Positions 16,091 through 64,000 of a stretch of DNA of 64,000 bases are shown here, one piece after another. The position numbers and the translations under genes were made by a program. Origin of the DNA: Ehretia macrophylla. Lineage: Eukaryota; Streptophyta; Magnoliopsida; Boraginales; Ehretiaceae. The stretch covers positions 29,977,853 through 30,041,852 of the forward strand of contig CM075773.1 of assembly GCA_037974665.1 (NCBI GenBank). Direction: 5' to 3'. Each line of letters begins with the position of its first letter. Position 1 is the stretch's first letter. The notes below the pieces were generated by a model, which had not been told where the DNA came from, did not search any database, and saw nothing but the letters and a program-made list of their open reading frames with translations.

Positions 16091-16199
16091 TACCTTTAAC
16101 AACAGCGGTCTCATTTGGAATCTCCTCGCATTCAATAGCATAGGCTTGAGCCTGAACCCTAGGAACTGGAGTCTTGCCTCTACCAGCTGGTTTACCCTG

Positions 16200-27419: not shown

Positions 27420-29170
27420 ATTTTGGGCTCTGAAAATAGGCGCAATCGAGCAGGCTTGGTGTCCACGTCGTAGAGCTTTCAGAGAGCTTTCCAACGGTAT
27501 GCTGTGTGCTACATAACTCCTTATGGATCAAAAGTTATAGGCACCGGAGCGACGGATACCTGGTTACAAGCCCCACGCCCTCAGTTTGTTGGCCCAGCCT
27601 CTACATGAAGTGAAGTTGTCTTACCCAAGGTGCCATGGGATTCAGTAATAGAAATGTGATGGATTAAGTTGTCACCTTCTCGCGGCTCACGACATACGAT
27701 CCGGGAGAGAAAAACATCGCAAAAGAATAAAAGTATCCCGAAACTGATGAAAACATTCGATTTTGGACTCTGAAAATAGTGGCAGCCTAGCAAGCTGGGT
27801 GTCCTCATCGTAGAGCTCTCAGAGAGCTGTCTAACAGTATACAGTGCACCACATAACTCCTTACGGATCTAGAGTAATGGGCACCAGAGCGACGGATACC
27901 TAGTTACAAGCCCCACACCCTCTTTTTGTGGGCCCAACCTCTACGTTAAGTGAAGTTGTCTTGCCCAAGGTGCCCTGTGATTTGGTAATGGAAATGTTAT
28001 GGACTAGGTTATCGTCCTTTTCGCGACTCACGACATACGATCTGGGACAGAAAAATAACACAAAAGAAGAAAAGTGTCCCGAAATTGATGAAAATATTCT
28101 ATTTTGGATTCTAAAAATAGTGGTAGCCGAGCAGGATAGGTACCCCAATCTTAGAGCTCTCAGAGAGCTTTCCAACGGTATGCTGTGCACCGCGTAACTC
28201 CTTATGGATCAAAAGTTTTGGGCACCGGAGCTAGGGATACTTGGTCACAAGCCCCACGCCCTTTGTTTGTAGGCCCAGCCTCTACGTGAAGTGAAGTTGT
28301 TTTGCCCACCATGTGATTCGGTAATAGAAATGTGATGGATTAGGTTGTCGTCCTTTTCGCGGCTCATGACTAACGATACGGCACGAAAAAATAGCACAAA
28401 AGAAGAAAATTATCCGGAAGTTAATGAAAATGTTCAATTTTGGGTTCTGAAAATTGGCACAGCCGAGCAGGCTTGTGCCCATGTCGTAGAGCCCTCAAAG
28501 AGCTTTCCAATGGTATACTTTGCGCCGCATAACTTCTTATGGATCAAAAGTTATAGGCACCGAAGCGACGGATACCTGGTCACAAGCCCCACGCCCTCTG
28601 TTTGCGGGCCCAGCCTCTACGTGAAGTGAAGTTGTCTTGCCCAAGGTGCCATGGGATTCGGTAATAAAAATGTGATGGATTAGGTTGTCGTCCTTTTTGC
28701 GGCTCACGACGTACGATCTGGGACAGAAAAATAGCGCAAAAGAAGAAAAGTGTTCTGCAACTGATGAAAACGTTCAATTTTGGACTCTGAAAATTGTGTT
28801 AGCCAAGCAGGCTTTGTTCCCCCGTCGTAGAGCTCTCAGAGAGATTTTCAACGGTATGCTGTGTGCCGAGTAACTCCTTACGGATCCAAAGTTATGGGAA
28901 CAAGAGCGACGGATACCTGGTAACAAGCCCCACGCCCTCTGTTTGCGGGCCCAGCCTCTACCTTAAGTGAAGTTGTCTTGCCCAAGGTGCAGTGTGATTC
29001 GGTAATAGAAATAAGATGGATTAGGTTGTCGTCCTTTTTGCGGCTCACGACGTACGATCCGCGATAAAAAAATAGCACAAAAGAAGAAAAGTATCCCGAA
29101 CCTGATAAAAACGTTCAATTTTGGACTCCGAGATAGTTGCAACCGAGCAAGCTAGGTGCCCCCATCGTAG

Positions 29171-29185
29171 AGCTCTCAGAGAGCT
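29171..29185. repeat. Example of the 15-bp dyad present in nearly every monomer
   Basis: AGCTCTC-A-GAGAGCT has perfect 7-bp arms around one central base (A or G in most monomers). It contains the SacI word GAGCTC on its left edge. It sits just before TTTCCAACGG in the monomer. Confidence 0.85.
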
Positions 29186-32100
29186 TTCCAACGGTATGTT
29201 GTGCGCCGCGTAACTCCTTACGGATCAAACGTTATGGGCACCGGAGCGACGGATACCTGGTCACAAGCCCCACGCCCTTTGTTTGCGGGCCCAGCCTCTG
29301 CGTGAAGTGAAGTTGTCTTGCCCAAGGTGCTATGGGATTCGGTAATAGAAATGTGATGGATTAGGTTGTCTTCCTTTTCGAAGCTCACGATATACGATCC
29401 GGGACGAAAAAATAGCGCAAAAGAAGAAAAGTGTCACAAAACTGATGAAAACGTTTGATTTTGTGCTCTGAAAACAGTCACAGTCTAACAGGCTTGTTGC
29501 CCCTATCGTAGAGCTCTTGGAGAGCTTTCCAACGGTATGTTGTGCGCCACATAACTCTTTACGGATCGAAAATTATGGGCACCAGAGCGACGGATACCTG
29601 GTCACTAGTCCCGCGCCCGCTATTTGCAAGACCAGCCTCTACATGAAGTGAAGTTTTCTTGCCCAAGGTGTCGTGTGATTCGGTAATAAAAATGTGATGG
29701 ATTAGGTTATCGTCCTTTTCGCGGCACACGACATACGATACGGGACAGAAAAATAGCACAAAAGAAGAAAAGTGTCCCGAGGCTGATGAAAATGTTCAAT
29801 TTTGGGTTCTAAAAATAGGTGCAGCCGAGCAATCTTGGTTCCCACATCGTAGAGCTCTCGGAAGGCTTTCCAACGATATACTGTGTGCTGGATAACTCCT
29901 TATGGATCAAAAGTTATAGGCACCGGAGCGAAGGATACCTGGTCACAAGCCCCACGCCCTCTGTTTGCGGGCCCAGCCTCTACGTGAAGTGAAGTTGTCT
30001 TGCCCAAGGTGCCGTGGGATTTGGTAATAGAAATGTGATGGATTAGGTTGTCGTCCTTTTCACGGCTCACGACGTACTATCCGGGACAGAAAAGTAGCAC
30101 AAAAGAAGAAAAGTGTCCTGAAACTGATGAAAACGTTCGATTTTAGACTACGAAAATAGCGGCAGCCAAGCAAGCTTGGTGCCCCCGTCGTAGAGCTATC
30201 GGAAAGCTTTCCAACGGTATGTTGTGTGCTGCGTAACTCCTTACGGATCCAAAGTTATGGACACCGGAGCGACGGATACCTGGTCACAAGCCCCACGCCC
30301 TTTGTTTGCGGGTCCAGCCTCTATGATAAGTGAAGTTGTCTTGCCTAAGGTGCCATGTGATTCGGTAATAAAAATGGGATAGATTAGGTTGTTGTCCTTT
30401 TCGAGGCTCACGACGTATGATCAGGGACAGAAAAACAGCGCAAAAGAAGAAAAGTGTCCCAAACCTGATGAAAACGTTCAATTTTGGACTCCGAAAATAG
30501 TGGCAGCCGAGTAGGCTAGGTACCCCTATCGTAGAGCTCTTAGAGAGCTTTCCAACGGTATGCTATGCCCCGCGTAGCTCCTTACGGATCAAAAGTTATG
30601 GGCACCGAAGGGACGGATACTTGGTCACAAGCCCTACGCCCTCTGTTTGCGGGCCCAGCCACTACGTGAAGTGAAGTTGTCTTGCCCAAGGTGCCATGTG
30701 ATTCGATAATAGAAATGTGATGGATTCGGTTGTTGTCATTTTTGCGGCTCACGACGTACGATACGGGATAAAAAAATAGCACAAAAGAAGAAAATTATAC
30801 CGAAACTGATGAAAATCATCAATTTTGGGTTCTGAAAATAGGCACAGCCGAGCAGGCTTGGTTCCCATGTCGTAGAGCTCTTGCAGAGGTTTCTAACGGT
30901 ATGCTTTGCGCCGCATAACTCCTTATGGATAAAAAGTTATAGGCACCGGAGCAACAGATACCTGGTCACAAGCCCCACACCCTCTATTTGCAGGCCCAGC
31001 CTCTACGTGAAGTGAAGTTATCTTGCCCAAGATGCCATGGGATTCGATAATAGAAATGTGATGGATTACGTTGTCGTCCTTTTCACGGCTCACGACGTAT
31101 GATCCGAGACAGAAAAACCGTGCAAAAGTAGAAAAGTGTCCCGAAACTGATGAAAACGTTCAATTTTGGAATCCAAAAATTGTGGTAGCTAAGCAGGCTT
31201 TGGGCCCCTGTCGTAGAGCTCTTGGAGAGCTTTCCAACGGTATGCTGTGCGCCGCGTAACTCCATACGGATCCAAAGTTATGGGCATCGGAGTGACGGAT
31301 AACTGGTCACAAGCCACACACCCTCTGTTTTCGGGCCCAGCCTCTACGTTAAGTGAAGTTGTCTTGCCCAAGGTGCCATGAGATTCAGTAATAGAAATGT
31401 GATGGATTAGGTTGTCGTCCTTTTCGCGGCTCACGACGTACGATCCGGGATAAAGAAAAACAGCGTAAAAGAAGAAAAGTGTCCCGAACCTGATGAAAAC
31501 ATTCGATTTTGGACTAAAAAATTGTTGCAGTCGAGCAGGCTAAGTGCCCTCATCGTAGAGCTCTCAGTGACCTTTCCAACGGTATGCTATGCGCCGCGGA
31601 ACTCCGTGCGAATCAAAAGTTATAGGCATCGGAGCGATTGATACCTGGTGACAAGCCCCACGCCCTCTATTTGCGGGCCCAGCCTCTACGTGAAGTAAAG
31701 TTGTCTTGCCTAAGGTGCCTTGTGATTCGATAATAGAAATGTGATGGATTCGGTTGTCGTCTTTTTCGCAGCTCACGACATACGATCCGGGACGGAAAAA
31801 CAGCGCAAAAGAAGAAAAGTATCCCAAAACTGATGAAAACGTTCGATTTTGTGCTCCGAAAACAGGGATAGCTGAGCAAACTTGCTACCCCCGTCGTAGA
31901 GCTCTCGGAGAGGTTTCTAACGGTATACTATGCGCCGCGTAACTCCTTACAGATCAAAAGTTATGGGCACCGGAGCGATGAATACCTGGTCACAAGCACC
32001 ACTCCCTCTGTTTGCGGGCCTAGCCTCTACATTAATTGAAGTTGTCTTGCCCAATGTGTCGTGTGATTCAGTAATAGAAATGTGATGAATTAGGTTGTCG

Positions 32101-32678
32101 TTCTCTTCGCGGCTCACGACGTACGATCTGGGATAGAAAAATAGCACAAAAGAAGAAAAGTGTTCCGAAACTGTTGAAAACATTCGATTTTGGACTCCGA
32201 AAATAGTAGCAGCCAAGCAGGTTTGGTGCCCCCGTCGTAGACCTCTCAGAGAGCTTTCCAACGGTATGCTGTGCGCCACGTAACTCCTTACGGATCAATA
32301 GTTATAGGCACCGGAGCGACGGATACCTGGTCACAAGCCCCACGCCATCTGTTTGCAAGCCCAGCCTCTTCGTGAAGTGAAGTTGTCTTGCCCAAGGTGC
32401 TGTGTGATTCGGTAATAGAAATATGATAGTTAGGTTGTCATCTTTTTCGCGGCTCACGACGTACGATCCGGGACAGAAAAATAGCACAAAAGAAGAAAAT
32501 TATCCTAAAACTGATGAAAATGTTCAATTTTGAGTTCTGAAAATAGGTGCAGCCGAGCAGGCTTGGTGCCCACATCGTAGAGCTCTCGGAGGGGTTTCCA
32601 AAGGTATGCTTTGCGTCGCATAACTCCTTATTGATCAAAAGTTATAGGCGCCGGAGCGACGAATACCTGGTCACAAGC

Positions 32679-32699
32679 CCTGCAAACTCTATTTGCGGG
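32679..32699. repeat. Hairpin-variant monomer, imperfect copy
   Basis: CCTGCAAA-CTCTA-TTTGCGGG, one mismatch from the perfect 8-bp-arm hairpin seen at 54691, 56395 and 61163. Ordinary monomers read CACGCCCTCTGTTTGCGGG here and have no such arms. Confidence 0.7.
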
Positions 32700-33399
32700 C
32701 CCAACCTCTACATGAAGTGCTGTTGTCTTGCCAAGGATGCCTTGTGATTCAGTAATAGAAATGTGATTGATTAGGCTGTCGTCCATTTCGTGGCTCACAA
32801 CGTACGATTCGGGACATAAAAACAGTGCAAAAGAAGAAAGGTAATCCGAAACTGATGAAAACGTTCAATTTTGGACTCTGAAATAGTTACAGCCGAGCAG
32901 GCTAGGTGCCCCCATCATAGAGTTCTCAGAGAGCTTTCTAACGGTATGTTGTGCACCCTGTAACTCCTTACGGATCAAAAGTTATGGGCACCGGAGCGAC
33001 GGATACTTAGTCACAAGCCCCACGCCCTCTGTTTGCGGGCCCAGCCTCTACGTGAAGTGAAGTTGTCTTGCCCAAGGTGCCATGGGATTCAGTAATAGAA
33101 ATGTGATGGATAAGGTTGTCGTCCTTTTTACAGCTCACGACGTACGATCCGGCACAAAAAAATAGCAGAAAAGAAGAAAAGTGCCCGAACCTAATGAAAA
33201 CGTTCAATTTTGGACTTCGAAATAGTAGCAGCCGAGTAGGCTAGGTTCCCCTATCGTAGAGCTCTCAGAGAGCTTTCCAACGATATGTTATGCGCAGCGT
33301 AACTCCTTACGAATCAAAAGTTATGGACACCGAGGCGACGGATACTTGGTTATAAGCCCCACGCCCTCTGTTTGCAGGCCCAGCCTCTACGTCAAGTGA

Positions 33400-36300
33400 A
33401 TTCGTCTTGCCCAAGGTGCCGTGTGATTCGTAATAGAAATGTGATGGATTAGGTTATCGTCCTTTTCGCAGCTCACGACGTACGATCCGGGATGAAAAAA
33501 TAACACAAAAGAAGAAAAGTGTCCCGAAACTGATAAAAATGTTCGATTTTGGGCTCCGAAAATAGGTGCAACCGAGCTGGCTTCTTGTCCCGTCGTAGAG
33601 CTCTCGGAGAGCTTTCTAATGGTATGCTGTGCCCCGCGTAACTCCTTACGGATCAAAAGTTATGGGCACCGGAGCAACAGATACCTGGTCACAAGCCCCA
33701 CGCCCTCTTTTTGCGGGCCCAACCTCTACGTGAAGTGAAGTTGTCTTACCCAAGGTGTCATGGGATTCGGTAATAAAAATGTGATGGTTCAGGTTGTCAT
33801 CCTTCTCACCACACACGACGTACGATCTGGGGCAGAAATATTGCACAAAAGAACAAAAGTGTCCTGAAACTGATGAAAATGTTCGATTCTGGACTCCAAA
33901 AATTGTGGCATCGGAGCAGGCTTTGTGCCTCCATCGTACAGCTCTCAAAGAGCTTTCCAACAGTATGTTGTGCGCCGCGTAACTCCTTACGGATCCAAAG
34001 TTATGGGCACTGGAGCGACGGATACCTGGTCACAAGCCCTACGCCCTCTCTTTGCGGCCCCAACCTCTACATTAAGTGAAGTTGTCTTGCCCATGGTGCC
34101 GTGTGATTCGGTAATAGAAATGTGATGGATTAGGTTGTCATCCTTTTCGCGGCTCAAAAAGTACGACCCGGGACAGAATAACAGCACAAAAGAAGAAAAG
34201 TGTCCCAAACCTGATGAAAACATTCAATTTTAGACTCTGAAAATAGTGGCAGCAGAGCAGGCTAGGTGCCCCCATCATAGAGCTCTCAGAGAGCTTTCCA
34301 ATGGTATGTTGTGGCTTGTGTAACTCTTTTCGGAGCAAAAGTAATGGGCACCGGAGCGATGGATACCGAGTCACAAGCCCTACGCCCTCTGTTTGTGGGC
34401 CCTGCCTCTACGTGAAGTGAAGTTGTCTTGCCCAAGGTACCGTGTGATTCAGTAATAGAAATATGATGGATTAGGCTGTCATCCTTTTCGTGCCTCACGA
34501 CGTATGATACGGCATAGAAAAACAGCGCAAAAGAAGAAAAGTGTCCTGAAACTGATGAAAACGTTCGATTTTGTGCTACAAAAAAGGTACAATCGAGTAG
34601 GCTTGTTGTCCCCATCGTAGAGCTCTCATAGAACTTTCCAACGGTATGTTGTGCGCCGCGTAACTCCTTACGGATCATATGTTATGGGCACCGGAGCGAT
34701 GGAGACCTGGTCATAAGCCCCACGCCCTCGGTTTGCGGGCCCAGCCTCTACGTGAAGCGAAGTTGTCTTGCCCAAGGTGCCATGTGATTCGGTAATAGAA
34801 ATGTGATGGATTAGGTTGTCGTCCATTTCGTGGCTCAAGACGTACGAATGGGACTGAAAAACAGCGCAAAAGAAGAAAAGTGTCCCGAACCTGATGAAAA
34901 CATTCAATTTTAGACTTTGAAAATAGTGGCAGCTAAGCAGGCTAGGTGTCCCCATCGTAGAGCTCTCAGAGAGCTTTCCAATGGTATGTTGTGCGCCGCG
35001 TAACTCCTTACGGATCAAAAGTTATGGGCACCAGAGCGACGGATACCTGGTCACAAGCCCCACGACCTCTGTTTGCTGGCCCAACCTCTACGTGAAGTGA
35101 AGTCGTCTTGCCCAAGGTACCGTGTGATTCGGTAATAGAAATATGATGGATTAGGTTGTCATCCTTTTCGCGGCTCACGACGTATGATACGGCACAGAAA
35201 AACAGCGCAAAAGAAGAAAAGTGTCCTGAAACTGATGAAAACGTTCGATTTTGTGCTACAAAAAAGGTAGTGTCAAGTAGGCTTGTTGTCCCCATCGTAG
35301 AGCTCTCGGAGAGCATTCTAACGGTATGCTGTGCTCCGCGTAACTCCTTACGGATCAAAAGTTATAGCCACCGGAGCGATGGTTGCCTGGTCATAAGCCC
35401 CACGCCCTCTGTTTGTGGGCCCGGCCTCTATGTGAAGTGAAGTTGTCTTTCACAAGGTGCTGTGTGATTCGATAATAGAAATGTGATGGATTAGGTCATC
35501 GTCCTTTTCGCGGCTCACAACGTACGATCCAGGACGAAAAAACAACGCAATAGAAGAAAAGTGTCTCGAAACTGATGAAAACATTCAATTTTTGGCTTTG
35601 AAAATAGGTGCAGCAGAGTAGGGTTGGTGCCCACATCGTAGAGCTCTCAGAGCGCTTTCCAACGGTATGTTGTACGCCGCATAACTCCCTATGGATCAAA
35701 AGTTATAGGCACCGAAGCGACGGATACCTGGTCATAAGCTCCACGCCCTCTGTTTGCGGGCCCAGCCTCTACATGAAGTGAACTTGTCTTGCCCAAGGTG
35801 CCGCTGTATTTGGTAATAGAAACGTGATGGATTAGGTTGTCGTCCTTTTCGTGGCTCACGGCGTACGATCGGGGACAAAAAAGTAGCGTAAAAGAAGAAA
35901 AGTGTCCTGAAACTGATGAAAATGTTTAATTTTGGACTCTGAAAATAGCAGTAGCCAAGCAGGCTTAGTGCCGCTGTCATAGAGCTCTCGGAGAGCTCTC
36001 CAACGGTATGCTGTGCGCCGCGTAACTCCTTACGAATCAAAAGTTAAAGACACGGGAGCGACGGATACCTGGTCTCAAGCCCCACGCCCACTGTTTGCGG
36101 GCCCAGCCTCTACGTGAAGTGAAGTTGTCTTGCCCAAAGGTGCCATAGGATTCAGTAATAGAAATGTGATGGATTAGGTTGTCGTCCTTTTCGCGGCTCA
36201 AGACGCACGATCCGAGATGAAAAAATAGCGCAAAAGAAGAAAAATGTCCCGAAACTGATGAAAACGTTCAATTTTGGTCATCAAAAGCAGCTAAGCAGGC

Positions 36301-39300
36301 TTGGTGCCCCCGTCGTAGACCTCGCGGATAGCTTTTCAACAGTATGCTGTGCGCCATGTAACTCCTTACTGATCAAAAGTTATGGGCACCGGAACGACAG
36401 AAACCTGGTTACAAACCCCACGCCTTCCGTTTGCGGGCCTAGCCTCTACGTGAAATGAAGTTGTCTTGCCCAAGGTATCGTGTGATTCGGTAATAGAAAT
36501 GTGATGGATTAGGTTGTTGTCCTTTTCGCGGCTCACAACGTACGATCCAGGACGGAAAAACAACGCAAAAGAAGAAAAGTGTCCCGAAACTGATGAAAAC
36601 TTTTGATTTTGGACTTTGAAAATAGGCGCAGCCGAGTAGGCTTGGTGCCCCCGTTGTAGAACTCTCAGATAGCTTTCCAACGGTATGTTGTACACCACGT
36701 AACTCTTCACGGATCCAAAGTTATGGGCACTGGAGGGACGGATACCTGGTCATAAGCCCCACACCCCTGGTTTGCGGGCCTGGCCACTACATGAAGTGAA
36801 GTTGTCTTGCCGAAGGTACCATGTGATTTGGTAATAGAAATGTGCTGGATTAGGTCGTCGTCTTTCCGCGGCTCACAACGTACGATCTGGGACGGAAAAA
36901 AACTCAAAAGAAGAAAAATGTCCCAAAATTGATGAAAACGTTCGATTTTGGGCTTTGAAAATAGGCGCAGCCGATTAGGCTTGGTGCCCACGTCGTAGAG
37001 CTATCGGAGAGCTTTCCAATAGTTTGCTGTGCACCGTATAACTCCTTACGGATTAAAAGTTACAGGTACCGGAGCGACGGACATCTGGTAACAAGCCCCA
37101 CGCCCCTGCTTTGCAGGCCCATCCTCTACGTGAAGTGAAGTTGTCTTCCCCAAGGTGCCATGGGAATTGGTAATAGAAATGTGAATGATTAGGTTGTCGT
37201 CCTTTTTGCGACTCACGACGTACGATCCAGGACAGAAAAATAGCACAAAAGAAGAAAAAGGTTCTGAAACTTATGAAAATGTTCAATTTTGGATTCCGAA
37301 AATAGCGGCATCCATGCAGGCTTGGTGCCCTCGTCGTTGAGCTCTCGGAGAGCTTTCCAACGGTATGTTGTGCGCCGCGTAACTCCTTACGGATCAAAAG
37401 TTATAGGCACCGGAGCGACAGATACCTTGTCACAAGCCGCACGCCCTCAGTTTGCGGGCCCAACTTCTTCGTGAAGTGAAGTTGTCTTGCTCAAGGTGTC
37501 GTGGCATTCGGTAATAGAAATGTGATGGATTAGGTTGTCGTCCCTTTCATGGCTCAAGACGTATGATCCGGGACGGAAAAATAGCGCAAAAGAAGTAAAG
37601 TGTCCCGAAACTGATGAAAATGTTCAATTTTGGTGACCGAAAACAAGCGCAGCTGAGCAGGCTTATTGCCCTTGTTGTAGAGCTTTCGGATAGCTTTCCA
37701 ACGGTATGTTGTGCGCCATGTAATGCCTTATGGATCAAAATTATGGGCACCGGAGCGACAGATACCTAGTCACAAACTCCACGCCTTCCATTTGTGGGCC
37801 CAGCCTCTACGTCAAGTGAAGTTGTCTTGCATTAGGTGCCGTGTGATTCGGTAATAGAAATGTGATGGATTAGGTTGTCGTCCTTTTCGCGGCTCAAGAC
37901 GTATGATCCGGGATGAAAAAACAGCGCAAAAGAAGAAAAATGTCTCAAAACTTATGAAAATGTTTGATTTTGGGGTCCAAAAATAGGGTACCCCAATGGT
38001 TTGCTGTGCGCCGCACAACTCCTTACGGATCAAAAGTTATAGGCACCGGAGCGACGAATATCTTGTCACAATCCCTACGCCCTCGGTTTGCGGACCCAGA
38101 CTTTACAAGAAGTGAAGTTGTCTTGCCCAAGTTGCCATGTGATTCGGTAATACAAATGTGATGGATTAGGTTGTCGTCCTTTTCACGGCTCACGACGTAT
38201 GATCCGGAACGGAAAAAAAGCGTAAAAGAAGAATAGTGTCCCAAAACTTATGAAAATGTTCGATTTTGGGCTCCAAAACAGGGGCAGCCGAGCAGGCTAG
38301 GTGCCTCCATCATAGAGCTCTCAGAGAGCTTTTCAACTGTATACTGTGCGCCACGTAACTCCGTACAGATCAGTAGTTATGGGCACCGGAGCGACGGATA
38401 CCTGGTCATAAGCCCCACGGCCTCTGTTTGCGGCCCCAGCCACTACTTGAAGTAAAGTTGTCTTGCCCAAGGTGCCCTGGGATTCGGTAATAGAAATGTG
38501 ATAAATTAGGTTGTCGTCCTTCCTCGCGGCTCACGACGTACGATCCGGGACAGAAAAACAGCGCAAAAGAAGAAAAGTGTCACGAAATTGATTAAAACAT
38601 TCAATTTTGTACTCCAAAAATAGTGGCAGCAGAGCAGGCTAGGTGCCCCCATCGTAGAGCTCTCAAAGAGCTTTCTAACGGTATGTTGTGCGCCGCGTAA
38701 CTCCTTACGGATCAAAAGTTATGGGTACCGGAGCGACGGATACGTGGTCACAAGCCCCACACATTCCGTTTGCGGGCGCAGCCTCTACGTTAAGTGAAGT
38801 TGTCTAGCCCAAGGTGTCGTGTGATTCTGTAATAGAAAAGTGATGGATTAGGTTGTCGTCCTTTTCGCAGCTCACGACGTACGATCCGGGACAGAAAAAC
38901 AGCGCAAAAGAAGAAAAATGTCACTAAATTGATGAAAATGTTCGATTTTGGACTCCGAAAATAGTGGCAGTCGAGCAGGATAGTTGCCCCCATCGTAAAG
39001 CTCTCAGAGAGCTTTCCAACGGTATGTTGTGCACTGCGTAAGTCCTTACGGATCAAAAGTTATAGGCACCGGAAAGTTATAGGCCCCACGCCCTCTATTT
39101 GCGGGACCAGCCTCTACGTGAAGTGAAGTTGTCTTGCCAAGGTGCCATGTGATTTAGTAATAGAAATGTGATGAATTAGGTTATCGTCCTTTTCGAAACT
39201 CACGACGTTTGATCTGGGACTGAAAAACAGCGCAAAAAAAGAAAAGTGTCCCGAAACTGATGAAAACGTTCGATTTTGTGCTCTGAAAATAGGTACAGCC

Positions 39301-42300: not shown

Positions 42301-43050
42301 AAGAAGAAAAGTGTTCCAAAACTAATGAAAACGTTCGATGTTGTGCTCTGGAAATAGGCACAGCCGAGCAGGCTTGCTGCCTCCATCGTAGAGCTCTTGG
42401 AGATCTTTCCAACGGTATGCTGTGCGCCGCATAACTCTTTGCGGATCAAAAGTTATGTGCACTGGAGTGATGGATACCTGGTCATTAGCCCCGCGCCCTC
42501 TGTTTGCAAGCCCAGCCTTTACGTGAAGTAAAGTGTCCTGCACAAGGTGCCGTGTTATTCGGTAATAGTAATGTGAAGGATTAGGTTGTCGTCCGTTTCG
42601 CTGCTCACAACGTACGATCCAGGACAAAAAAATAGCGCAAAAGAAGAAAAGTGTCCCAAAACTAATGAACACGTTTGATTTTGGGTTCTAAAAATTGGCG
42701 CAGCTGAGCAACCTTGGTGACCACGTCGTAGAGCTCTCATAGAGCTTTCCAACGGTATGATGTGCGCTGAATAACTCCTTATGGATCAAAAGTTATAGGC
42801 ACCGGAGGGACGGATACCTGGTCACAAGCCTCACGCCCTCTGTTTGCGGGCCCAGCCTCTACGTGAAGTGAAGTTATCTTACCCAAGGTGTCATGGGATT
42901 CGGTAATAGAAATGTGATGGATTAGGCTGTCGTCCATCTCGCGGCTCACGACGTACGATCTGTGACAGAAAAACAGCGCAAAAGAAGTAAAGTGTCTCGA
43001 AACTGAGGAAAATGTTCGATTTTGGACTCCGAAAATAGTGGCAGCCAAGC
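33400..43050. repeat. Higher-order repeat segment, copy 1 of the ~10.2-kb duplication
   Basis: Rare monomer variants occur in the same order as in 44600-52750. Examples are TGGTTCAGG (33785), GTGCTACAAAAAAGG (34573, 35253), GTGGCATTCGG (37501), ATGAGAATGTTCG (39601), GCAGACGAGCAGGATTGG (near 40657), TGTGAGCTGCGTAACTCC (near 41399) and GGTGACCACGTCG (near 42716). The offset to the second copy is mostly 10,155-10,214 bp. It is 11,168 or 10,488 bp at the left because of an extra dimer here, and 9,812 bp at the right because of about one monomer lost or gained. Ends are approximate. Confidence 0.75.
34240..35600. repeat. 680-bp tandem dimer (two-monomer unit, two copies)
   Basis: The marker GTGCTACAAAAAAGG is at 34573 and 35253, exactly 680 bp apart. 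Both are followed by GAGTAGG- or AAGTAGG-GCTTGTTGTCCCC, and each is flanked by the same pair of monomer types. The second large segment (near 45741) has this dimer only once. Confidence 0.75.
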
Positions 43051-52750: not shown

Positions 52751-53223
52751 TCACGGCTCATGACGTACGATCCGGGACGAAAAAATAGAGCAAAAGAAGA
52801 AAAATATCCCGAAAATGATGAAAACGTTGATTTTGTGCTCCGAAAATAAGTGCAGTCAAGCTGGCTTGGTGCCCTCGTCGTAGAGCTCTTGGAGAGCTTT
52901 CCAACGGTATACTGTGGGCCGAGTAACTCTTTACGGATCCAAAGTTATGGGCACAGGAGCAACGGATACCTGGTAACAAGCCCCGCACCCTCTGTTTGCG
53001 GGCCCAACCTCTACGTTAAGTGAAGTTGTCTTTCCCAAGGTGCAGTGTGATTCGGTAATAGAAATGTGATGGATTAGGTTGCCGTCCTTTTCGCGGCTCA
53101 CAACGTACGGTCCGGGACAGAAAAATAGCGCAAAAGAAGAAAAGTATCCCGAACCTGATGAAAAAGTTCAATTTTGGACTCTGAAATAGTTTCAGCCTAG
53201 CAGGCTAGGTGCTCCCATCGTGG

Positions 53224-53238
53224 AGCACTCAAAGTGCT
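53224..53238. repeat. Dyad variant with matching changes in both arms
   Basis: AGCACTC-A-AAGTGCT. The fourth base of the left arm changed from T to A and its partner in the right arm from A to T, so that pair is kept, while the innermost pair is lost. A single case, so it may be chance. Confidence 0.55.
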
Positions 53239-53547
53239 TTCCAACAGAATACTGTGCGCCGCGTAACTCCTTACGGATCAAAAGTTATGGTCACCGGAGC
53301 GACGGACCTAGTCACAAGCCCCACGCCCTCTGTTTGCGGGCCCAGCATCAACGTGAAGTGAAGTTGTCTTGCCCAAGGTGCCATGTAATTCGGTAATAGA
53401 AATGTGATGGATTAGGCTGTCGTCCTTTTAGAAGCTCACAACGTACGATCCGGGACGGAAAAACAGCACAAAAGAAGAAAAGTATCCCGAAACTAATGAA
53501 AAAGTTTGATTTTGTGCTCTGAAAATAGGCACAGTCTAGCAGGCTTG

Positions 53548-53563
53548 CCCCCCCCCCCCCCCC
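53548..53563. repeat. 16-base C homopolymer inside a monomer
   Basis: Other monomers have GCTTGCTGCCCCCATCG here. This one has GCTTG followed by 16 C and then ATCG. It could be a true slippage expansion or a sequencing or assembly artefact. Confidence 0.9.
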
Positions 53564-53639
53564 ATCGTAGACCTCTCGGAGGGCTTTCCAACGGTATGCT
53601 GTGCGCCGCATAACTCTTTACGGATCAAAAGTTATGTGC

Positions 53640-55340
53640 ACCAGAGAGACGGATGCCTGGTCACAAGCCCCATGCCCTCTGTTTGCAAGCCCAGCCTCTA
53701 CGAGAAGTGAAGTTGTCCTGTACAATGTGCCGTGTTATTCGATAATAGAAATGTGATGTAATTGGTTGTCGTCCTTTTCGTGACTCACGACGTACGATCC
53801 TAGACGGAAAAACAGCAGAAAAGAAGAAAAGTGTCCCAAAACTGATGAAAACGTTCGATTTTGTACTCTGAAAGCAGGCACAGCCTAGCAAGCTTGCTGC
53901 CCCCATTGTAGAGCTCTCGGAGAGCTTTCCAACGGTATGCTGTGCGGCACGTAACACCTTACGGATCGAAAGTTATGGGCACCGGAGTGACGGATACCTG
54001 GTCACAAGCCCTACGCCATCTGTTTGCGGGCCTAGCCTCTACGTTAAGTGAAGTTGTCTTGCCCAAAGTGCCGTGTGATTCGGTAATAGAAATGTGATGG
54101 ATTAGGTTATTGTCCTTTTCGTGGCTCACAACGTACGATCTGGGACAGAAAAATAGCGCAAAAGAAGAAAAGTGACCCGAACCTATTGAAAACATTCGAT
54201 TTTGAAATCCAAAAATAGTGGCAACCGAGCAAGCTAGGTGCCCCTATCGTAGAGCTCTCAGAGAGCTTTCAAACGGTATGCTGTGCGCCGTGTAACTCCC
54301 TATGGATCAAAAGTTATGGGCACCGGAACGACAGATACCTAGTTACAATCCCCACACCCTCTGTTTGCGGGCCCAGCCTCTACGTGAAGTGAAGTTGTCT
54401 TGCCCAAGGTGCCGTGTGATTCGGTAATAGAAATATGATAGTTAGGTTGTCGTCTTTTTCGCGGCTCACGACGTACGATACTGGACGAAAAAATAGCGTA
54501 AAAGAAGAAAATTATCCAAAAACTAATGAAAATGTTCAATTTTGGGTTCTGAAAATAGGCATAGCGGAGCAGGCTTGGTGCCCATGCCATAGAGCTCTCA
54601 AAGAGGTTTCCAACGGTATGCTTTGCGCCGCATAACTCCTTGTGGATCAAAAGTTATAGGCACCGGAGCGACAGATACTTGGTCACAAGCCCCGCAAACT
54701 CTATTTGCGGGCTCAGCCTCTACGTGACGTGAAGTGGTCTTGCCCATGATGCCGTAGGATTCGGTAATAGAAATGTGATGGATTAGGTATCGTCCTCTTC
54801 GCAGCTCACGACGTACGATCCAGGACAGAAAAACAGCGTGAAAGAAGAAAAGTATCACGAAACTGATGAAAACGTTCAATTTTTGACTCTGAAAATTATG
54901 GCAGCCGAGCAGGCTCTATGCCCCTGTCGTAGAGCCCTCAGTGAGCTTTCCAACGGTATGCTGTGCGCTGCGTAACTCCTTACGGATCCAAAGTTATGGG
55001 CACCGGAGCGACGGATAACTGGTTACAAGCCCCACGCCCTCTGTTTGTTGGCCCAGCCTCTATGTTAAGTGAAGTTGTCTTGCCCAAGGTGCCGTGTGAT
55101 TCGGTAATAGAAATGTGATGGATTAGGTTGTCGTCCTTTTTGCGGCTCACGACGTACGATCCGGGACGAAAAAAAAACATAAAGGAAGAAAAGTGTCCTG
55201 AAACTAATGAAATAGTTTGATTTTGTGTTATGAAAATTGGCACAGTCGAGCAGGCTAGTTACCCCCAACGTAGCGCTCTCGGAGAGCATTCCAACGGTAT
55301 GTTGTGCGCCGCATAACTCTTTACAGATCAAAAGTTATGT
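53640..55340. repeat. Five-monomer (1.70-kb) higher-order unit, copy A1
   Basis: Markers such as GTCCTG-ACAATGTGCCGTGTTATTC, GCCTAGCAAGCTTGCTGCCCCC (53884) and GAAAACATTCGATTTTGAAATCC recur 1,703 bp later in 55341-57045 and again about 6,472 bp later near 60353. Includes the ATGATAGTTAGG monomer (near 54435) and a hairpin-variant monomer (54691). Ends are approximate. Confidence 0.75.
54691..54711. repeat. Hairpin-variant monomer, perfect inverted repeat
   Basis: CCCGCAAA-CTCTA-TTTGCGGG has perfect 8-bp arms and a 5-base loop. The right arm is the normal monomer sequence. The left arm replaces the usual CACGCCC word with the reverse complement of the right arm. Confidence 0.88.
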
Positions 55341-57045
55341 TCACCGGAGCGACGGATGCCTGGTCACTAGCCCCACGCCCTCTGTTTGCAAGCCCAGCCT
55401 CTATGTGAAGTGAAGTTGTCCTGCACAATGTGCCGTGTTATTCAGTAATAGAAATGTGATGGAATCGGTTGTCGTCCTTTTCGCGGCTCACGACGTACGA
55501 TCCTGGATGGAATAACAGCGCAAAGGAAGAAAAGTATCCCGAAACTGATGAAAACATTCGATTTTGTACTCTAAAAACAGGCACAGCCTATCAAGCTTGC
55601 TGCCCCCATTGTAGAGCTCTCGGAGAGCTTTCCCACAATATGTTTTGCACCGCGTAACTCCTTACAGATCAAAATTTATGGGCACCGGAGCGACAGATAC
55701 TTGGTCATAAGCCCCACTCCCTCTATTTGCGAGCCCAGCCTCTACATGAAGTGAAGTTCTCTTGCCCAAAGTACCGTGTAATTCGGTAATAGAAATGTGA
55801 TGGGTTAGGTTATCGTCCTCTTCGCGGCTCACAACGTACGATCCGGGACAGAAAAATAGCGCAAAAGAAGAAAAGTAACCCGAACCTGTTGAAAACATTC
55901 AATTTTGAAGTCTAAAAATAGTGGCAACCGAGCAAGCTAGGTGCCCCTATAGTAGAGCTCTCGGAGAGCTTTCCAACGATATGCTGTGCACCGCGTAGCT
56001 CCCTATAGATCAAAAGTTATGGGTACTGGAACGACGGATACCTAGTCACAAGCCCCAGACCCTCTATTTGCGGGCCCAGTCTCTACGTCAAGTGAAGTTG
56101 TCTTGCCCAAGGTGCCGTGTGATTCGGTAATAGAAATGTAATAGATTGGGTTGTCGTCCTTTTTGCGGCTCAAGACGTACGATCCGGAAAGGAAACACAG
56201 CACAAAAGAAGAAAATTGTCCTAAAATTGATGAAAATGTTAAATTTTGGGTTCTGAAAATAGCCGTAACCAAGCAGGCTTGGTTCCCACGTCGTAGAGCT
56301 CTCGGAGAGCTTTCCAACGATATACTGTGTGCTGCATAACTCCTTATGGATCAAAAGTTATAAGCACCGGAGCGAAGGATACCTAGTCACAAGCCCCGCA
56401 AACTCTATTTGCGGGCTCAACCTTCTACGTGAAGTGAAGTTGTCTTGCCCAAGGTGCCGTGGGATTCGGTAATAGAAATGTGATGGATTAGGTTGTCTTC
56501 TTTTTCGCTGCTCACGACGCAGGATCCGGGACAGAAAAGCAGCGCAAAAGAAGAAAAGTGTCCCGAAACTAATGAAAACGTTCGATTTTTTGCTCTGAAA
56601 ATTATGGCAGCTGAGCCGGCTTTATGCCCCTGTCGTAGAGCTCTCGGAGAGATTTCCAACGGTATATTGTGCGCCGTGTAACACCTTACACATCCAAAGT
56701 TATGGGCACAAGAGCGACGGATACCTCGTAACAAGCCCCACGCCCTCTGCTTGCGGGCCCAGCCTCTACGTTAAGTGAAGTTGTCTTGCCCAAGGTGCAG
56801 TGTGATTCGGTAATAGAAATGTGATGGATTAGGTTGTCGTCCTTTTCGCGGCTCACGGCGTACGATTCGCGACAAAAAAATAGTACAAAAGAAGAAAAGT
56901 GTCCCGAACCTGATGAAAACGTTCGATTCTGGACACCGAAATAGTTGCAGCCAAGCAGGCTATGTGCCCCCATCGTAGAGCTCTCAGAGAGCTTTCCAAC
57001 GATATGCTATGCGCCGCATAATGTCTTACGGATCAAAAGTTATGG
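55341..57045. repeat. Five-monomer (1.70-kb) higher-order unit, copy A2
   Basis: The tandem neighbour of A1 and very close to the unit at 60110-61815 (offset about 4,769 bp). Shared runs include GATCCTGGATGGAATAACAG, GGCACAGCCTA-CAAGCTTGCTG, AAGTAACCCGAACC, GCCCCTATAGTAGAG and GATTCTGGACACCGAAATAG. Confidence 0.75.
56395..56415. repeat. Hairpin-variant monomer, perfect inverted repeat
   Basis: CCCGCAAA-CTCTA-TTTGCGGG. It is 4,768 bp before the copy at 61163, so it is part of the 14-monomer unit. Confidence 0.88.
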
Positions 57046-60000
57046 GCACCGGAGCGACGGATACCTGGTCACAAGCCCCACGCCCTCTCTTTACAGGCGC
57101 AGCCTCTACGCGAAGTGAAATTGTCATGCCTAAGGTGCCGTGTGATTCGGTAATAGAAATGTCATGGATTAGGTTATCGTCTTTTTCACAGCTCGCGATG
57201 CACGATCCGGGACGGAAAAAGATCGCAAAATAAGAAAAGTGTCCCAAAACTGATGAAAATGTTCGATTTTGGGCACTGAAAATAAGCACAGCCGAGCAAG
57301 CTTGTTGCACTCGTCGTAGAGTTCTCAAAGAGCTTTCCAATGGTATACTGTGCGCCGCATAACTGCTTACGGATCAAAAGTTATGGGCACCAGAGCGACG
57401 GATACCTGATCACAAGCCCCACGCCCTCTGTTTACGGGCCCAACCTCTGCGTGCAGTAAAGTTGTCTTACCCAAGGTGCCGTGGGATTCAGTAATAGAAA
57501 TGTGATGGTTCAGGTTGTTGTCCTTCTCGCGGCTCACGACGTACGATCCAGGATAAAAAACAGCGCAAAAGAAGAAAAGTGTCCCGAAATTGATGAAAAC
57601 GTTCAATTTTGGACTCCAAAAATTGTGGCATCCGAGCAGGCTTTGTGCCCCTATCGTACAGCTCCCAGAGAGCTTTCCAACGGTATGCTATGCGCCGTGT
57701 AACTCCTTACGGATCTAAACTTATGGGCACAAGAGCGACAAATACCTAGTCACAAGCCCCACGCCCTCTGTTTCCGGCCCTAGCCTCTGCGTTAAGTGAA
57801 GTTGTCTTGCCCAAGGTGCCGTGTGATTCGGTAAAAGAAATGTGATGGATTAGGTTATTGTCCTTTTTGCGGCTCACGACGTATGATCCGGGACAGAAAA
57901 ACAGCGCAAAAGAAGAAAAGTGTTGCGAATCTGATGAAAATGTTCAATTTTGGACTCCAAAAATAGTGGCAGCCGAGCAGGCTATGTGCCCCCTTCGTAG
58001 AGCTCTCAATGAGATTTCAAACTGTATGTTGTGCCCCGTGTAACTCCTTACGGATCAAAAGTTATGGGCATCGGAGCGATGGATACCAAGTCACAAGCCC
58101 TACGCCCTCTGTTTGCGGGCCCAGCCTCTACGTGAAGTGAAGTTTTCTTGCCCAAGGTACCGTGTGATTCGGCAATAGAAATGTGATGGATTAGGTTGTC
58201 GTCCTTTTCGAGGTTCACGACGGACGATCCGGGACGAAAAAATAGCGTAAAAGAAGAAAAGTGTCCTGAAACTGATGAAAACATTCGATTTTGTGCTACA
58301 AAAAAGGTACATTTGAGTAGGCTTGTTGTCCCCATTGTAGAGCTCTTAGAGAGCTTTCCAACGGTATGCAGTACACCGCGCAACTCCTTACGGATCAAAA
58401 GTTATTGGCACCGGAGCGACGGTTACCTGGTCATAAGCCCCACGCCCTCTGTTTGCGGGCCCGGCCTCTACGTGAAGTGAAGTTGTCTTGCCCACGGTAT
58501 TGTGTGATTCAGTAATAGAAATGTGATGGATTAGGTTGTCGTCATTATCGCAGGTCACGACGTACGATCCGGGACGAAAAAATAGCACAAAAGAAAAAAA
58601 GTGTCCCGAAACTGATTAAAACATTCAATTTTGGAATACGAAAACAAGTGCAGCCGAGAAGGTATGATGCCCACATCGTAGAGGTCTCGGAGAGCTTTCC
58701 AATGGTATGTTGTGCGCCGCGTAACTCCGTACGGATCAAAAGTTATGAGAACTGGAGCGACGGATATCTGGTCACAAGCCCACGCCATCTGTTTGCGAGC
58801 CCAACCACTACGTGAATTGAAGTTTTCTTGCCCAAGGTGCCGTGGGCTTTGGTAATAAAAATGTGATGGATTAAGTTGTCGTCCTTTTCGAGGCTCACGA
58901 CGTACGATCCGGTACAGAAAAATAGCACAAAAGAGGAAAAGTGTCCCGGAACTAATGAAAATGTTCAATTTTGGGCTCTAAAAATAGCGGCAGCCAAGCA
59001 GGCATGGTGCCCCCGTCGTAGAGCAATCGGAGAGCTCTCCAACGATATACTATGCACCGCGTAACTCCTTACGGATCAAAAGTTATAGGCACCGGAGCAA
59101 CGGATACCTGGTCACAAGCCCCACGCCCTCTGTTTGTCGGCCCAGCCTCTTCGTGAAGTGAGTTGTCTTGCCCAAGGTGCAGTGGAATTTGGTAATAGAA
59201 ATGTGGTGGATTAGGTTGTCGTCCTTTTAGCGGCTCAAGACGTACGATCCGGGACGAAAAAATAGTGCAAAAGAAGAAAATTGACCTGAAATTGATGAAA
59301 ATGTTCAGTTTTGGTTACCGAAAACAGGCGCAGCTGAGCAAGCTTGGTGCCCCCGTCGTAGAGCTCTCAGATAGCTTTCCAACGGTATGCTGTGCGCCAT
59401 ATATCTCCTTACGGATCAAAAGTTATGGGCACCAGAGTGACAGATACCTGGTCACAAACCCCACGCCCTCATTTGTGGGCCCAGCCTCTACGGGAATTGA
59501 AGTTGTCTTGCCCAAGGTACCGTGGGATTTGGCAATAGAAATGTGATGGATTAGGCTGTCGTTCTTTTTGCGACTCAAAACGTACGATCCGGGATGGAAA
59601 AATAATGCAAAAGAAGAAAAGTGTCCCAAAACTGATGAAAACGTTTGATTTTCGGCTTCGAAAATAGGCGCAGCCTAGTAGGCTTGGTGCCCCCGTTGTA
59701 GAGCTCTCAGATAACTTTCCAATGGGATGCTGTGCACCGCGTAACTCCTCACGGATCCAAAGTTATGGGCACCGGATGGATGGATACCTGGTCATAAGCC
59801 CCACGCCCTTTGTTTGAAGGCCCGGCCACTGTGTGAAGTGAAGTTGTCTTGCCCAAGGTACCGTGTGATTCGGAAATAGAAATGTGATGGATTAGGTTGT
59901 CGTCCTTTTCGCGGTTCACAACGTTTGATCCAGGATGGAAAAACAGTGCAAAAGTAGAAAAGTGTCCCGAAAATGATGAAAACGTTCGATTTTGGGCTTT

Positions 60001-60109
60001 GAAAATAGGTGCAATTGATTAGTCTTGGTGCCCACATCGTAGAGCTCCTAGAGAGCATTCCAACGGTATGCTTTACGCAGCATAAATCCTTATGGATCAA
60101 AAGTTATAG
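57046..60109. repeat. Nine-monomer segment B1 of the 4.77-kb (14-monomer) unit
   Basis: From about 57450 onward it matches 62220-64000 at an offset of 4,770 bp. Shared markers are GGACTCCAAAAATTGTGGCA (57611 and 62381), CCTTACGGATCTAAACTTATG, GTGCTACAAAAAAGG, GAGGTCTCGG (58681 and 63452) and GAGAGCTCTCCAACGATATA. The first monomer is less similar to its partner. The last part (59300-60109) has its counterpart beyond the window edge. Confidence 0.75.
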
Positions 60110-61815
60110 GCACTGGAGCGACGGATACCTGGTCACAAGCCCCACGCCCCCAGTTTGCAAGCCCAGCCTCTATGTGAAGTGAAGTTGTCTTGCACAAGGT
60201 GCCGTGTTATACGGTAATAGAAATGTGATGGAATCGGTTGTCGTCCTTTTCGCGGCTCACGACGTACGATCCTGGATGGAATAACAGCGCAAAAGAAGAA
60301 AAGTATCCGAAAACTGATGAAAACATTCGATTTTGTACTCTAAAAACAGGCACAGCCTAGCAAGCTTGCTGCCCCCATTGTAGAGCTCTCGGAGAGCTTT
60401 CCAACGGTATGCTGTGCGACACGTAAGTCCTTACGGATCAAAAGTTATGGGCACTGGAGCGACGGATACCTGGTCACAAGCCCCACGCCATCTGTTTGCG
60501 GGCCTAGCCTCTACATTAAGTGAAGTTGTCTTGCCCAAAGTGCCGTGTGATTCGGTAATAGAAATGTGATGGATTATGTTGTTGTCCTCTTCGCGGCTCA
60601 CAACATACGATCCGGGACAAAATAGTAGCGCAAAAGAAGAAAAGTAACCCGAACCAGTTGAAAACATTCAATTTTGAAGTCTGAAAATAGTGGCAACCGA
60701 GCAAGCTAGGTGCCCTTATAGTAGAGCTCTCAGAGAGCTTTCCAACGATATTCTGTGCGCCACGTAGCTCCCTATAGATCAAAAGTTATGGGTACCGGAA
60801 TGACGGATACCTAGTCACGGGCCCCAGACCCTCTGTTTGCAGGCCCAGCCTCTACGTGAAGTGAAGTTGTCTTGCCCAAGGTGCCATGTGATTCGGTAAT
60901 ATAAATATAATAGTTAGGTTGTCGTCTTTTTCGCGGCTCATGACGTACGATACTGGACGGAAAAACAGCGCAAATGAAGAAAATTATCCTAAAACTGATG
61001 AAAATATTCAATTTTGGGTTCTAAAAATAGGCGCAACGGAGCAGGCTTGGTGCCCACGTCGTAGAGCTCTCGGAGAGCTTTCCAACAGTAAGCTTTGCGT
61101 CGCATAACTCCTTATGGATCAAAAGTTATAAGCACCGGAGCGACGGATACCTGGTCACAAGCCCCGCAAACTCTATTTGCGGGCTCAGCCTTTACGTGAC
61201 GTGAGGGTGTCTTGTCCATGGTGCTGTGGGATTCGGTAATAGAAATGTGATGGATTAGGTTATCGGCCTTTTTGCGGTTCACGACGTACGGTCCGGGACA
61301 AAAAAACAGGGCAAAAGACGAAAAGTATCCCGAAACTGATGAAAACGTTCAATTTTTTACTCTGAAAATTATGGCAGCCGAGCAGGCTTTGTGCCCCTGT
61401 CGTAGAGCTCTCAGAGAACTTTCCAACGGTATGCTGTGCGCCACGTAACACCTTACGGATCCAAAGTTATAGGCACCGGAGCAACGGATACTTGGTAACA
61501 AGCCCCACGCCCTCTGTTAGCGGGCCCAACCTCTACGTTAAGTGAAGTTGTCTTGCCCAAGGTGCCATGTGATTCGGTAATAGAAATGTGATGGATTAGG
61601 TTGTCGTCCTTTTCGCGGCTCACGACGAACGATCCGGGATTAAAAAAAATAGTAAAAAACAATAAAAGTGTCCCTAACTTGATGAAAACGTTCGATTCTG
61701 GACACCGAAATAGTTGCAGCCAAGCAGGCTCTATGCCCCCATCGTAGAGCTCTTGGAGAGCTTTCTAACGATATGTTATGCGCCGCATAACTCCTTACCG
61801 ATCAAAAGTGATGGG
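60110..61815. repeat. Five-monomer (1.70-kb) higher-order unit, copy A3
   Basis: A third copy of the A unit, about 4,769 bp after A2 and about 6,472 bp after A1, so the order across the right end of the window is A1-A2-B1-A3-B2. Confidence 0.75.
61163..61183. repeat. Hairpin-variant monomer, perfect inverted repeat
   Basis: CCCGCAAA-CTCTA-TTTGCGGG, the same as at 54691 and 56395, carried by the repeated A unit. Confidence 0.88.
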
Positions 61816-64000
61816 CGCCGGAGCGACGGATACCTGGTCACAAGCCCCACGCCCTCTGTTTGCGGGCCCAGCCTCTACGTGAAGTGAAATTGATTTGACC
61901 AAGATGCCGTGTTATTCGGTAATAGAAATGTGATGGATTAGGTTGTCATCATTTTCGTGGCTCACGATGTACGATGCGGGACGGAAAAATAGCGCAAAAG
62001 AATAAAAGTGACTGAAAACTGATGAAAACGTTTGATTTTGGGCTCTAAAAATAGGCACAGCCGACCAGGCTTGGTGCCCATGTTGTAGAGCTCTCGGAGA
62101 GCTTTCCAACGGTATGATGTGCGTCGCATAACTCCTTATGGATCAAAAGTTATAGGCACCGGAGCGACGGATACCTGGTCAGAAGGCCCACGCCTTCTGT
62201 TTGCGGGCCCATCCTCTACGCGAAGTAAAGTTGTCTTACCCAAGGTGCTGTGGGATTCAGTAATAGAAATGTGATGGATTAGGTTGTCATCCTTCTCGCG
62301 GCCCACGACGTACGATCCGGGACAGAAAAATAGGGCAAAAGAAGAAAAGTATCCCGAAACTGATGAAAGCGTTCAATATTGGACTCCAAAAATTGTGGCA
62401 TCCGAGCAGGCTTTGTGGCCCCATCGTACAGCTCCCGGAGAGCTTTCCAACGGTATGCTATGCGCCGTGTAACTCCTTACGGATCTAAACTTATGGGCAC
62501 TAGAGCGACAAATACTTAGTCACAGGCCCCACACCCTCTGTTTACGGGCTCAGCCTCTGCGTTAAGTGAAGTTGTCTTGCCCAAGGTGTCGTGTGGTTCG
62601 GTAATAGAAATGTGATGGATTAGGTTGTTGTCCTTTTCGCGGCTCACGACGTATGATCCGGGACAGAAAAACAGCGCAAAAGAAGAAAAGTGTCACGAAA
62701 TTGATGAAAACGTTCAATTTTAGACTCCAAAAATAGTGGCAGCAGAGCAGGCTAGGTGCCCCCATTGTAGAGCTCTCAAAGAGCTTTCTAACGGTATGTT
62801 GTACGCCGCGTAACTCCTTACGGATCAAAAGTTATGGGCACCGGAGCGATGGAGACCTGGTCATAAGCCCCAATGCCCTTTGTTTGCGGGCCTAGGCTCT
62901 ACGTGAAGTGAAGTTTTCTTGCCTAAGGTGGTATGGGATTTGGTAATAGAAATGTGTTGGATTAGGTTCTAGTCCTTTTCGTGGCTCACAACGTACGATC
63001 CAGGACGGAAAAATAGCGCAAAAGAAGAAAAGTGTCCAGAAACTGATGAAAACATTTGATTTTGTGCTACAAAAAAGGTACAGTCGAGTAGGCTTGTTGT
63101 CCCCATTGTAGAGCTCTCGGAGAGCTTTCCAACGGTATGCAGTACGCCGCGCAACTCCTTACGGATCAAAAGTTATTGGCACGGGAGCGACGGTTACCTG
63201 GTCATAAACCCCACACCCTCTGTTTGCGGGCCCGGCCTCTACGTGAAGTGAAGTTGTCTTGCCCAAGATACCGTGTGATTCGGTAATTGAAATGTGATGG
63301 ATTAGGTTGTCCTTTTTTTCGCAGGTCACAACGTACGATCCGGGATGAAAAAATAACGCAAAAGAAGAAAAGTATCCTGAAACTGATGAAAACGTTCAAT
63401 TTTGGGCTTTGAAAATAGGCGCAGCCGAGTAGGATTGGTGCCCACATCGTAGAGGTCTCGGAGAGCTTTCCAACGGTATGTTGTGCGCCGCATAGCTCCT
63501 TAGGGATCAATAGTTATAGGCACCGGAGCGACGGATACCTGGTCACAAGCCCACGCCCTCTGTTTGTGAGCCCAACCACTACGTGAACTGAAGTTTTCTT
63601 GCCCAAGGTGCCGTGGGCTTTGGTAATAAAAATGTGATGGATTAGGTTGTCGTCCTTTTCGCGGCTCACGACTTACGATCCGGTACAGAAAAATAGCGCA
63701 AAAGAGAAAAAGTGTCCTGAAACTAATGAAAACGTTCAATTTTGGACTCCAAAAATAGTGGTAGCCAAGCAGGCATGGTGCCCCCGTCGTAGAGAACTCG
63801 GAGAGCTCTCCAACGATATACTATGCGCCGCATAACTCCTTACGGATCAAAAGTTATAGGCACCGGAGCAACGGATACCTGGTCACAAGCCCCACGCCCT
63901 CTATTTGCCGGCCCAGCCTCTTCGTGAAGTGAGTTGTCTTGCCCAAGGTGCAGTGGAATTCGGTAATAGAAATGTGGTGGATTAGGTTGTCGTCCTTTTC
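61816..64000. repeat. Segment B2 of the 4.77-kb unit (continues past the window)
   Basis: Matches B1 at an offset of 4,770 bp up to the window end, so at least one further stretch of this repeat should lie to the right. Confidence 0.75.

Follow-up and report, generated by a model that had tools for sequence, protein, structure and literature searches.

A 64,000-bp stretch of the Ehretia macrophylla genome (assembly GCA_037974665.1, contig CM075773.1, C10:29977853-30041852; hereafter the window) carries 42,611 bp of a tandemly repeated 341-bp satellite, which is a spacer segment of the plant's own 5S ribosomal RNA gene (rDNA) unit. A preliminary description, made from the letters of the window, did not recognize the monomer as a named satellite and took it to be possibly new; a reading as an unrelated satellite is not supported, as the monomer is homologous to the intergenic spacer of the 5S unit. 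Long gene-less arrays separate from the 5S rDNA are also present elsewhere in the genome searched (1,579,978,469 bases in 20 contigs, C1-C20), in which a 70-base probe spanning the site of the missing gene block has 674 exact matches. We regard it as probable that the satellite originated from a 5S spacer by loss of the gene block, spread and diversified, and now constitutes (probably methylated) constitutive heterochromatin.

The satellite within the 5S rDNA unit

Contig C10 was sampled in 20 stretches of 10 kb (one of them within the window, and one composed of 81% N), 10 of which contain the satellite, one at 6% only. At 2, 14, 18, 25, and 27 Mb, the repeating unit is 677 bp long and consists of the 341-bp monomer interrupted by a second block. 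This block (336 bp in the consensus of locus L021) separates monomer position 247 from position 248 (consensus GGAT^TAGG), with one base in common at the join as read in the alignment. It comprises a short upstream region, with ATAAA at -27, a complete 5S gene oriented opposite to the satellite consensus, and a T-rich run that follows the gene. Rfam 5S rRNA matches number 65 in these five loci (76-116 bits; cut-off 38), with five more in loci L022, L041, and L046. The four best-scoring 5S genes (C17, C4, C8, and C9; up to 118.7 bits) sit in 677-type units as well; flanks were examined for these four of the 47 scored 5S matches. Across 12 loci (C4, C8, C9, C10, C14, and C17), satellite is present on both sides of 83 of the 90 5S genes; five of the other seven are cut by the end of the locus, and two are one-sided at array ends. 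In L018 and L014 (C10:18 and 2 Mb), the 677-bp 5S units are mixed with a 640-bp variant, and Tandem Repeats Finder also gives periods of 1,316-1,317 bp. Within the window, by contrast with these gene-bearing units, no RNA families were identified using Rfam, and the 336-bp block has only a 16-base match (E 0.73).

The 5S copy number is very high in this plant: a 54-base core of the gene has 20,172 exact genome matches. This core occurs 20 times in eight position-chosen loci that hold 70 Rfam 5S matches, which suggests ~7 x 10^4 5S genes genome-wide, provided that those loci (most of them on C10) are representative. The entire consensus 5S gene is found exactly eight times in the 12 loci.

It is highly improbable that the 5S-bearing units represent tandem Cassandra-type retroelements, with the 341 bp as the internal part. 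Each of the five 677-bp consensus sequences does have a purine-tract-like stretch at the gene's 3' end, one to two mismatches away from the polypurine motif, and Cassandra elements are described as having 5S sequence in their long terminal repeats (LTRs) and as forming tandem arrays that resemble 5S rDNA (PMC7215508). However, the 5S gene is full length in these units, reaches the high scores given above, and is followed by a T run. Furthermore, the primer site TGGTATCAGAGC, which is the Cassandra search pattern of PMC7215508, is absent: the best match has three mismatches of 12 in four consensus sequences, where it falls within the gene itself, and four in the fifth.

Junction, deletion form, and direction of change

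The two kinds of array are physically joined in locus L021 (C10:27.0 Mb), where the last gene of a 677-bp 5S array, at 8490-8608, is followed by 341-bp monomers in the same phase and orientation, with no break. All three full monomers at this junction carry G at both position 140 and position 221, which is also the usual state of the 5S units; these letters are found in only 5% (position 140) and 31% (position 221) of the window monomers. An internally deleted form was identified on C14, in which a 531-bp unit retains the gene and is missing ~150 bp across the border of block and satellite (mostly block, and ~5 satellite bases); TGT is common to both sides of the join, as read in the alignment.

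For the trees, the 531-bp units were aligned in the same register as the others. Among group consensus sequences, the unrooted tree places the gene-bearing groups (677 modern with 677 L017, then 677 L021, and 531) at one side, followed by type II, L025, and type I; the gene-bearing and gene-less groups are separated by a single transition (97% bootstrap). For a sample of 182 single units, the closest split contains every gene-bearing unit but one (51 of 52), and a grouping of all 52 is unrejected (approximately unbiased test, p-AU 0.674). Seven differences are fixed between 677-bp and 341-bp units. The 531-bp units agree with the 341-bp units at six of these sites and with the 677-bp units at one, so the majority of the letters specific to 677-bp units probably arose later. 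The midpoint root falls inside the gene-bearing side in three of four variants, the fourth placing it on the dividing branch, and consensus differences number 19-43 among gene-bearing groups vs. 5-15 among gene-less groups. Based on the midpoint roots, the single transition between units with and without a gene, and the 531-bp deletion form, we infer that the block was probably lost and not gained, and we prefer block loss over invasion of the 5S rDNA by a pre-existing satellite.

The 5S unit of this plant is ~677 bp long, composed of the 341-bp stretch and the 336-bp gene block, and one such unit would have lost the gene block by deletion. The resulting spacer-only unit would have been amplified in phase beside 5S arrays and later away from them; it would then have spread to most chromosomes and diversified into type II, which is near the 5S state, and type I, which is found in the window. 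In the window, the array has accumulated base changes that fall chiefly on CG and CHG sites, and retrotransposons have inserted into it.

Invasion would require the opposite sequence of events: a pre-existing 341-bp satellite would have contributed one monomer to a 5S unit of 336 bp, and the older units would have been replaced by the 677-bp composite. A length of 336 bp is plausible for an entire plant 5S unit. Each 677-bp unit holds one full monomer, and the single transition in the unrooted tree is explained by either direction. Nevertheless, we consider invasion unlikely: none of the 90 5S genes was seen clear of the satellite (the seven at locus or array ends could be judged only in part), the midpoint roots favor gene-bearing units as the older in three of the four variants, and the consensus differences are greater among the gene-bearing groups. 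A junction probe for a 336-bp 5S unit without the satellite gave no exact match, although this probe is insensitive, with its first half found exactly only three times in the 12 loci (~90 genes).

With respect to decay, transitions away from the consensus in the window amount to 16.7% at CG, 13.8% at CHG, and 5.8% at CHH sites, and to ~2% at A/T. Prolonged methylation at CG and CHG would be expected to leave such a pattern. Divergence among the window monomers is star-like, and the array shows little recent turnover. The window array is old and probably methylated, and the only role of the satellite is probably that of methylated constitutive heterochromatin, some of it pericentromeric.

Several points weigh against block loss followed by heterochromatic decay. 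Midpoint rooting assumes equal rates, and the tree was built without an outgroup species. Satellite invasion of 5S rDNA is on record, in that such an entry has been reported for the Phaseolus satellite jumper (PMC8724763). Transversions are not rare in the window (2-5%, depending on context), and methylation and heterochromatin are deduced from base changes only.

Genomic distribution

The preliminary description had proposed that the copies be counted across the genome and placed on the chromosomes; this gives copies on the order of 10^5, on 18 of the 20 chromosomes and mostly in interior positions. Exact matches to consensus probes number 2,554 for 50 bases, 133 for 75 bases, 51 for 83 bases, and 9 for 106 bases (with the first 100 matches listed for the 50-base and the 75-base probe). 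This steep fall with probe length speaks against an extensive young array that has exactly this consensus sequence. The genome copies are estimated at 1.3-2.4 x 10^5, an order of magnitude only, using the exact occurrence of the probes in 190 monomers (50-mer in two and 70-mer in one, thus very few matches) and an independence estimate. A gene-less 88-base probe has 60 matches, all of them listed, on 16 of the 20 chromosomes, to which C3 and C14 are added by the 83-base probe; there was no gene-less array on C11 and C15 (the two shortest contigs) among these exact-match samples. Outside C10, three of 39 position-chosen sites fall in the satellite or its 5S form.

The median relative distance to the nearest chromosome end is 0.29 for gene-less matches vs. 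0.10 for the 47 scored 5S matches, which are the best-scoring candidates only, include 16 from C4, and are in some cases interior (C2, C4, and C8). Similarly, 7% of gene-less vs. 49% of 5S matches are within a tenth of the chromosome end, and the contrast in end distance on chromosome medians (16 and 11 chromosomes) has p = 0.0002. This is suggestive of interior gene-less arrays, with 5S genes nearer the ends. TTTAGGG-type telomere repeats are present at the starts of C2 and C10 (the samples from C1 and C19 were all N, and that from C20 half N).

Main interior blocks are located, for example, on C3 (40-42 Mb), C5 (24-28 Mb), C7 (44-51 Mb), C9 (54-64 Mb), and C12 (36-40 Mb). Distant separate blocks are found on C1 (33-57, 112-117, and 123.5-124.7 Mb) and C8 (6-19 and 42-47 Mb), and a small additional block is at 58 Mb on C5. 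A single block per chromosome, which is typical of centromere satellites although no strict requirement, is not the rule, with more than one separate place on C1, C2, C8, C10, C13, C14, and C16. On C1, matches of the gene-less 70-base probe extend from 33.1 to 56.9 Mb among the matches listed (100 of 674). At C1:33.1-36.1 Mb, the matches listed form long, mostly one-orientation domains that switch from - to + and back to -, as if large inversions had occurred within the arrays.

A role as a centromere satellite, by which the 341-bp arrays would carry CENH3 and serve as working centromeres whatever their origin, is unlikely. The satellite is on 18 of 20 chromosomes, often as one main interior block; its length is close to two nucleosome repeats, and C1 has long domains of one orientation. 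However, several chromosomes (C1, C8, and C5) have separate, distant blocks, none was seen on C11 and C15, the window array is without a higher-order repeat, and the 106-base consensus probe has only nine genome matches. Given the wide spreads and the separate places on several chromosomes, broad and partly pericentromeric heterochromatin fits better than centromere cores. For the centromeric or pericentromeric location suggested in the preliminary description, the pericentromeric part is plausible (the satellite is abundant, has retrotransposon insertions, and is mostly interior); a centromere core is disfavored by the age of the array, the absence of higher-order repeats, the separate blocks, and C1 matches over >20 Mb.

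A broader proposition is that the 5S rDNA and its gene-less spacer offshoot together provide the main chromosome-scale heterochromatin of this plant, with ~10^5 spacer-only copies, and with 5S genes numbering in the tens of thousands, in multi-megabase blocks. Interior domains of most chromosomes, possibly including kinetochore sites, would then consist of 5S units without their gene. We judge this to be rather doubtful.

Among the sampled loci, L019 (C10:22.00 Mb) has another tandem repeat at 8079-9409 (311 bp, 4.3 copies, 98% alike), beside an N stretch. It may be a further satellite or the spacer of 35S rDNA; the locus has no Rfam match. L078 (C20:13.876 Mb) encodes an intact rbcL-like frame of 487 amino acids on a nuclear contig, in addition to many broken or partial ones; these are probable plastid DNA insertions. 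In L062 (C8:75.00 Mb), the G+C content is only 10% in a 600-bp sample.

The window array and its insertions

By alignment to the consensus, the satellite occupies four stretches of the window, all on the + strand, with 107.3 copies in 27418-64000 and 17.7 upstream (Table 1). The ~125 head-to-tail monomers of 340-341 bp reported in the preliminary description are therefore correct for the window as a whole; the part to which it assigned them, 27420-64000, holds ~107. Its start coordinate is exact, in that a retrotransposon ends at 27419 with ATTTT duplicated at both sides, and the main array begins at 27420. Phase analysis identifies the four stretches as one array split by three insertions. 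Tandem Repeats Finder gives a period of 340-341 for 27418-37973, 37993-51719, and 51719-64000, and for three smaller arrays (1762-3245, 6809-9159, and 21706-23649). The array is not the product of chance, given its length and regularity.

The array yielded 129 monomer pieces, 120 of them full length (>=300 aligned positions; mean length 340.0) and nine partial; the commonest lengths are 341 (n = 57) and 340 (n = 43). Monomer identity to the consensus is 85.9-92.7% (mean 89.6%), and mean pairwise identity in the main array is 82.8%. A higher-order repeat was rejected for the window array, as identity is flat with distance, two old segmental copies excepted. Monomer pairs 30 apart and 14 apart have 90-95% identity vs. 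the 83% average; the corresponding regions (~37-42 kb vs. 47-52 kb, and 56-59 kb vs. 60-64 kb, coordinates estimated from monomer numbers) are traces of old segmental duplications of ~10 and ~5 kb. A 170-bp half-repeat inside the monomer was also rejected: the best self-match is 107/341 at shift 21 (mean 84.8), and none of the best eight shifts is near 170.

Table 1. Features of the window.
Feature	Position	Strand	Evidence
Array piece, 4.4 monomers	1762..3245	+	Consensus alignment, phase
Insertion, TG...CA ends, 5-bp satellite duplication GTCTT, no paired ends inside, possibly solo LTR	3246..6808	.	
Array piece, 7.6 monomers	6809..9399	+	Consensus alignment, phase
Ty3-type LTR retrotransposon, 5-bp satellite duplication TAACT	9400..21707	-	
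Array piece, 5.7 monomers, transposon at either side	21708..23660	+	Consensus alignment, phase
Insertion, first 15 letters as in the element at 9400, 5-bp duplication ATTTT, possibly solo LTR	23661..27419	.	
Main array, 341-bp gene-less 5S-spacer satellite, ~107 monomers, extends past window end	27420..64000	+	Tandem Repeats Finder, consensus alignment; start from phase and 5-bp duplication
First monomer of main array, without first 2 letters of consensus phase	27420..27757	+	

The largest insertion (9400..21707) is younger than the array it split. Its LTRs are at least 3 kb long; of the 3,160 sites aligned between them, 120 are different (3.8%, indels uncounted). The preliminary description had named the insertions as chromoviruses: the Ty3-type assignment is upheld by gag, reverse transcriptase, RNase H, and integrase zinc-binding domains, whereas the chromodomain is a weak Pfam Chromo match (E 0.073, 13.4 bits vs. 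a cut-off of 25.1), and the element is likely a chromovirus. The last letters of the first insertion are the reverse complement of the 15 with which this element begins, so the insertion appears to be of the same family in the opposite orientation. Based on the 5-bp duplications, the TG...CA ends, and the common end letters, all three insertions probably belong to one transposon family.

Comparison with known systems

The Ehretia satellite would offer a sequence-level case of the birth of a satellite from a housekeeping gene array, for which gene-bearing, internally deleted (531 bp), and gene-less forms all persist in one genome, together with a physical, in-phase junction. It also gives reason for caution, in that an "unknown" satellite beside retrotransposons may not be a stand-alone centromere repeat.

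Searches of the open-licence literature yielded no report of a 340/341-bp satellite of this identity or of a 5S unit of 677 bp in this plant. Coincidences of length are found in the available portions of reports on Lagoseris, where 673-677 bp is the analyzed 5S region of another plant, and on pika, which has a 341-bp repeat. Satellites related to rDNA, including 5S cases, are already known; the scale and the clean junction are notable here.

Among animals, the available text on pikes (Esox) describes large 5S blocks on many chromosomes, with genes numbering in the tens of thousands (PMC5437419). There, the 5S units themselves are amplified at (peri)centromeres; in contrast to Ehretia, no separate gene-less spacer satellite is described in that text. 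Satellites originating from 5S rDNA, and similar to the Ehretia satellite in this respect, are reported for Hoplias (a fish, in which the satellite is centromeric) and Physalaemus (a frog; PcP190). PcP190 is described as retaining 120 bp that resemble the transcribed part of 5S (PMC11675491), whereas the window monomer has none.

Among plants, the jumper satellite of Phaseolus is likewise present as a single monomer within the 5S spacer, with thousands of copies elsewhere, in pericentromeric and subtelomeric positions (Ribeiro 2017, via PMC8724763). However, jumper is 170 bp long and is read as an invader of 5S rDNA, whereas the Ehretia monomer is 341 bp and the tree leans the opposite way. 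PLsatB of the Plantago lagopus B chromosome is a plant satellite of similar length (325 bp) that is related to 5S rDNA and massively amplified (Kumke 2016, via PMC6410184). As far as the available account goes, PLsatB is B-specific and includes fragments of 5S rDNA; the Ehretia satellite consists of spacer only, is found on 18 of 20 chromosomes, and has no gene sequence in the window. Satellites related to the spacer of 35S rDNA have been reported for potato, Vicia, and tomato, and these are also spacer-only derivatives of rDNA, but of the 35S and not the 5S unit.

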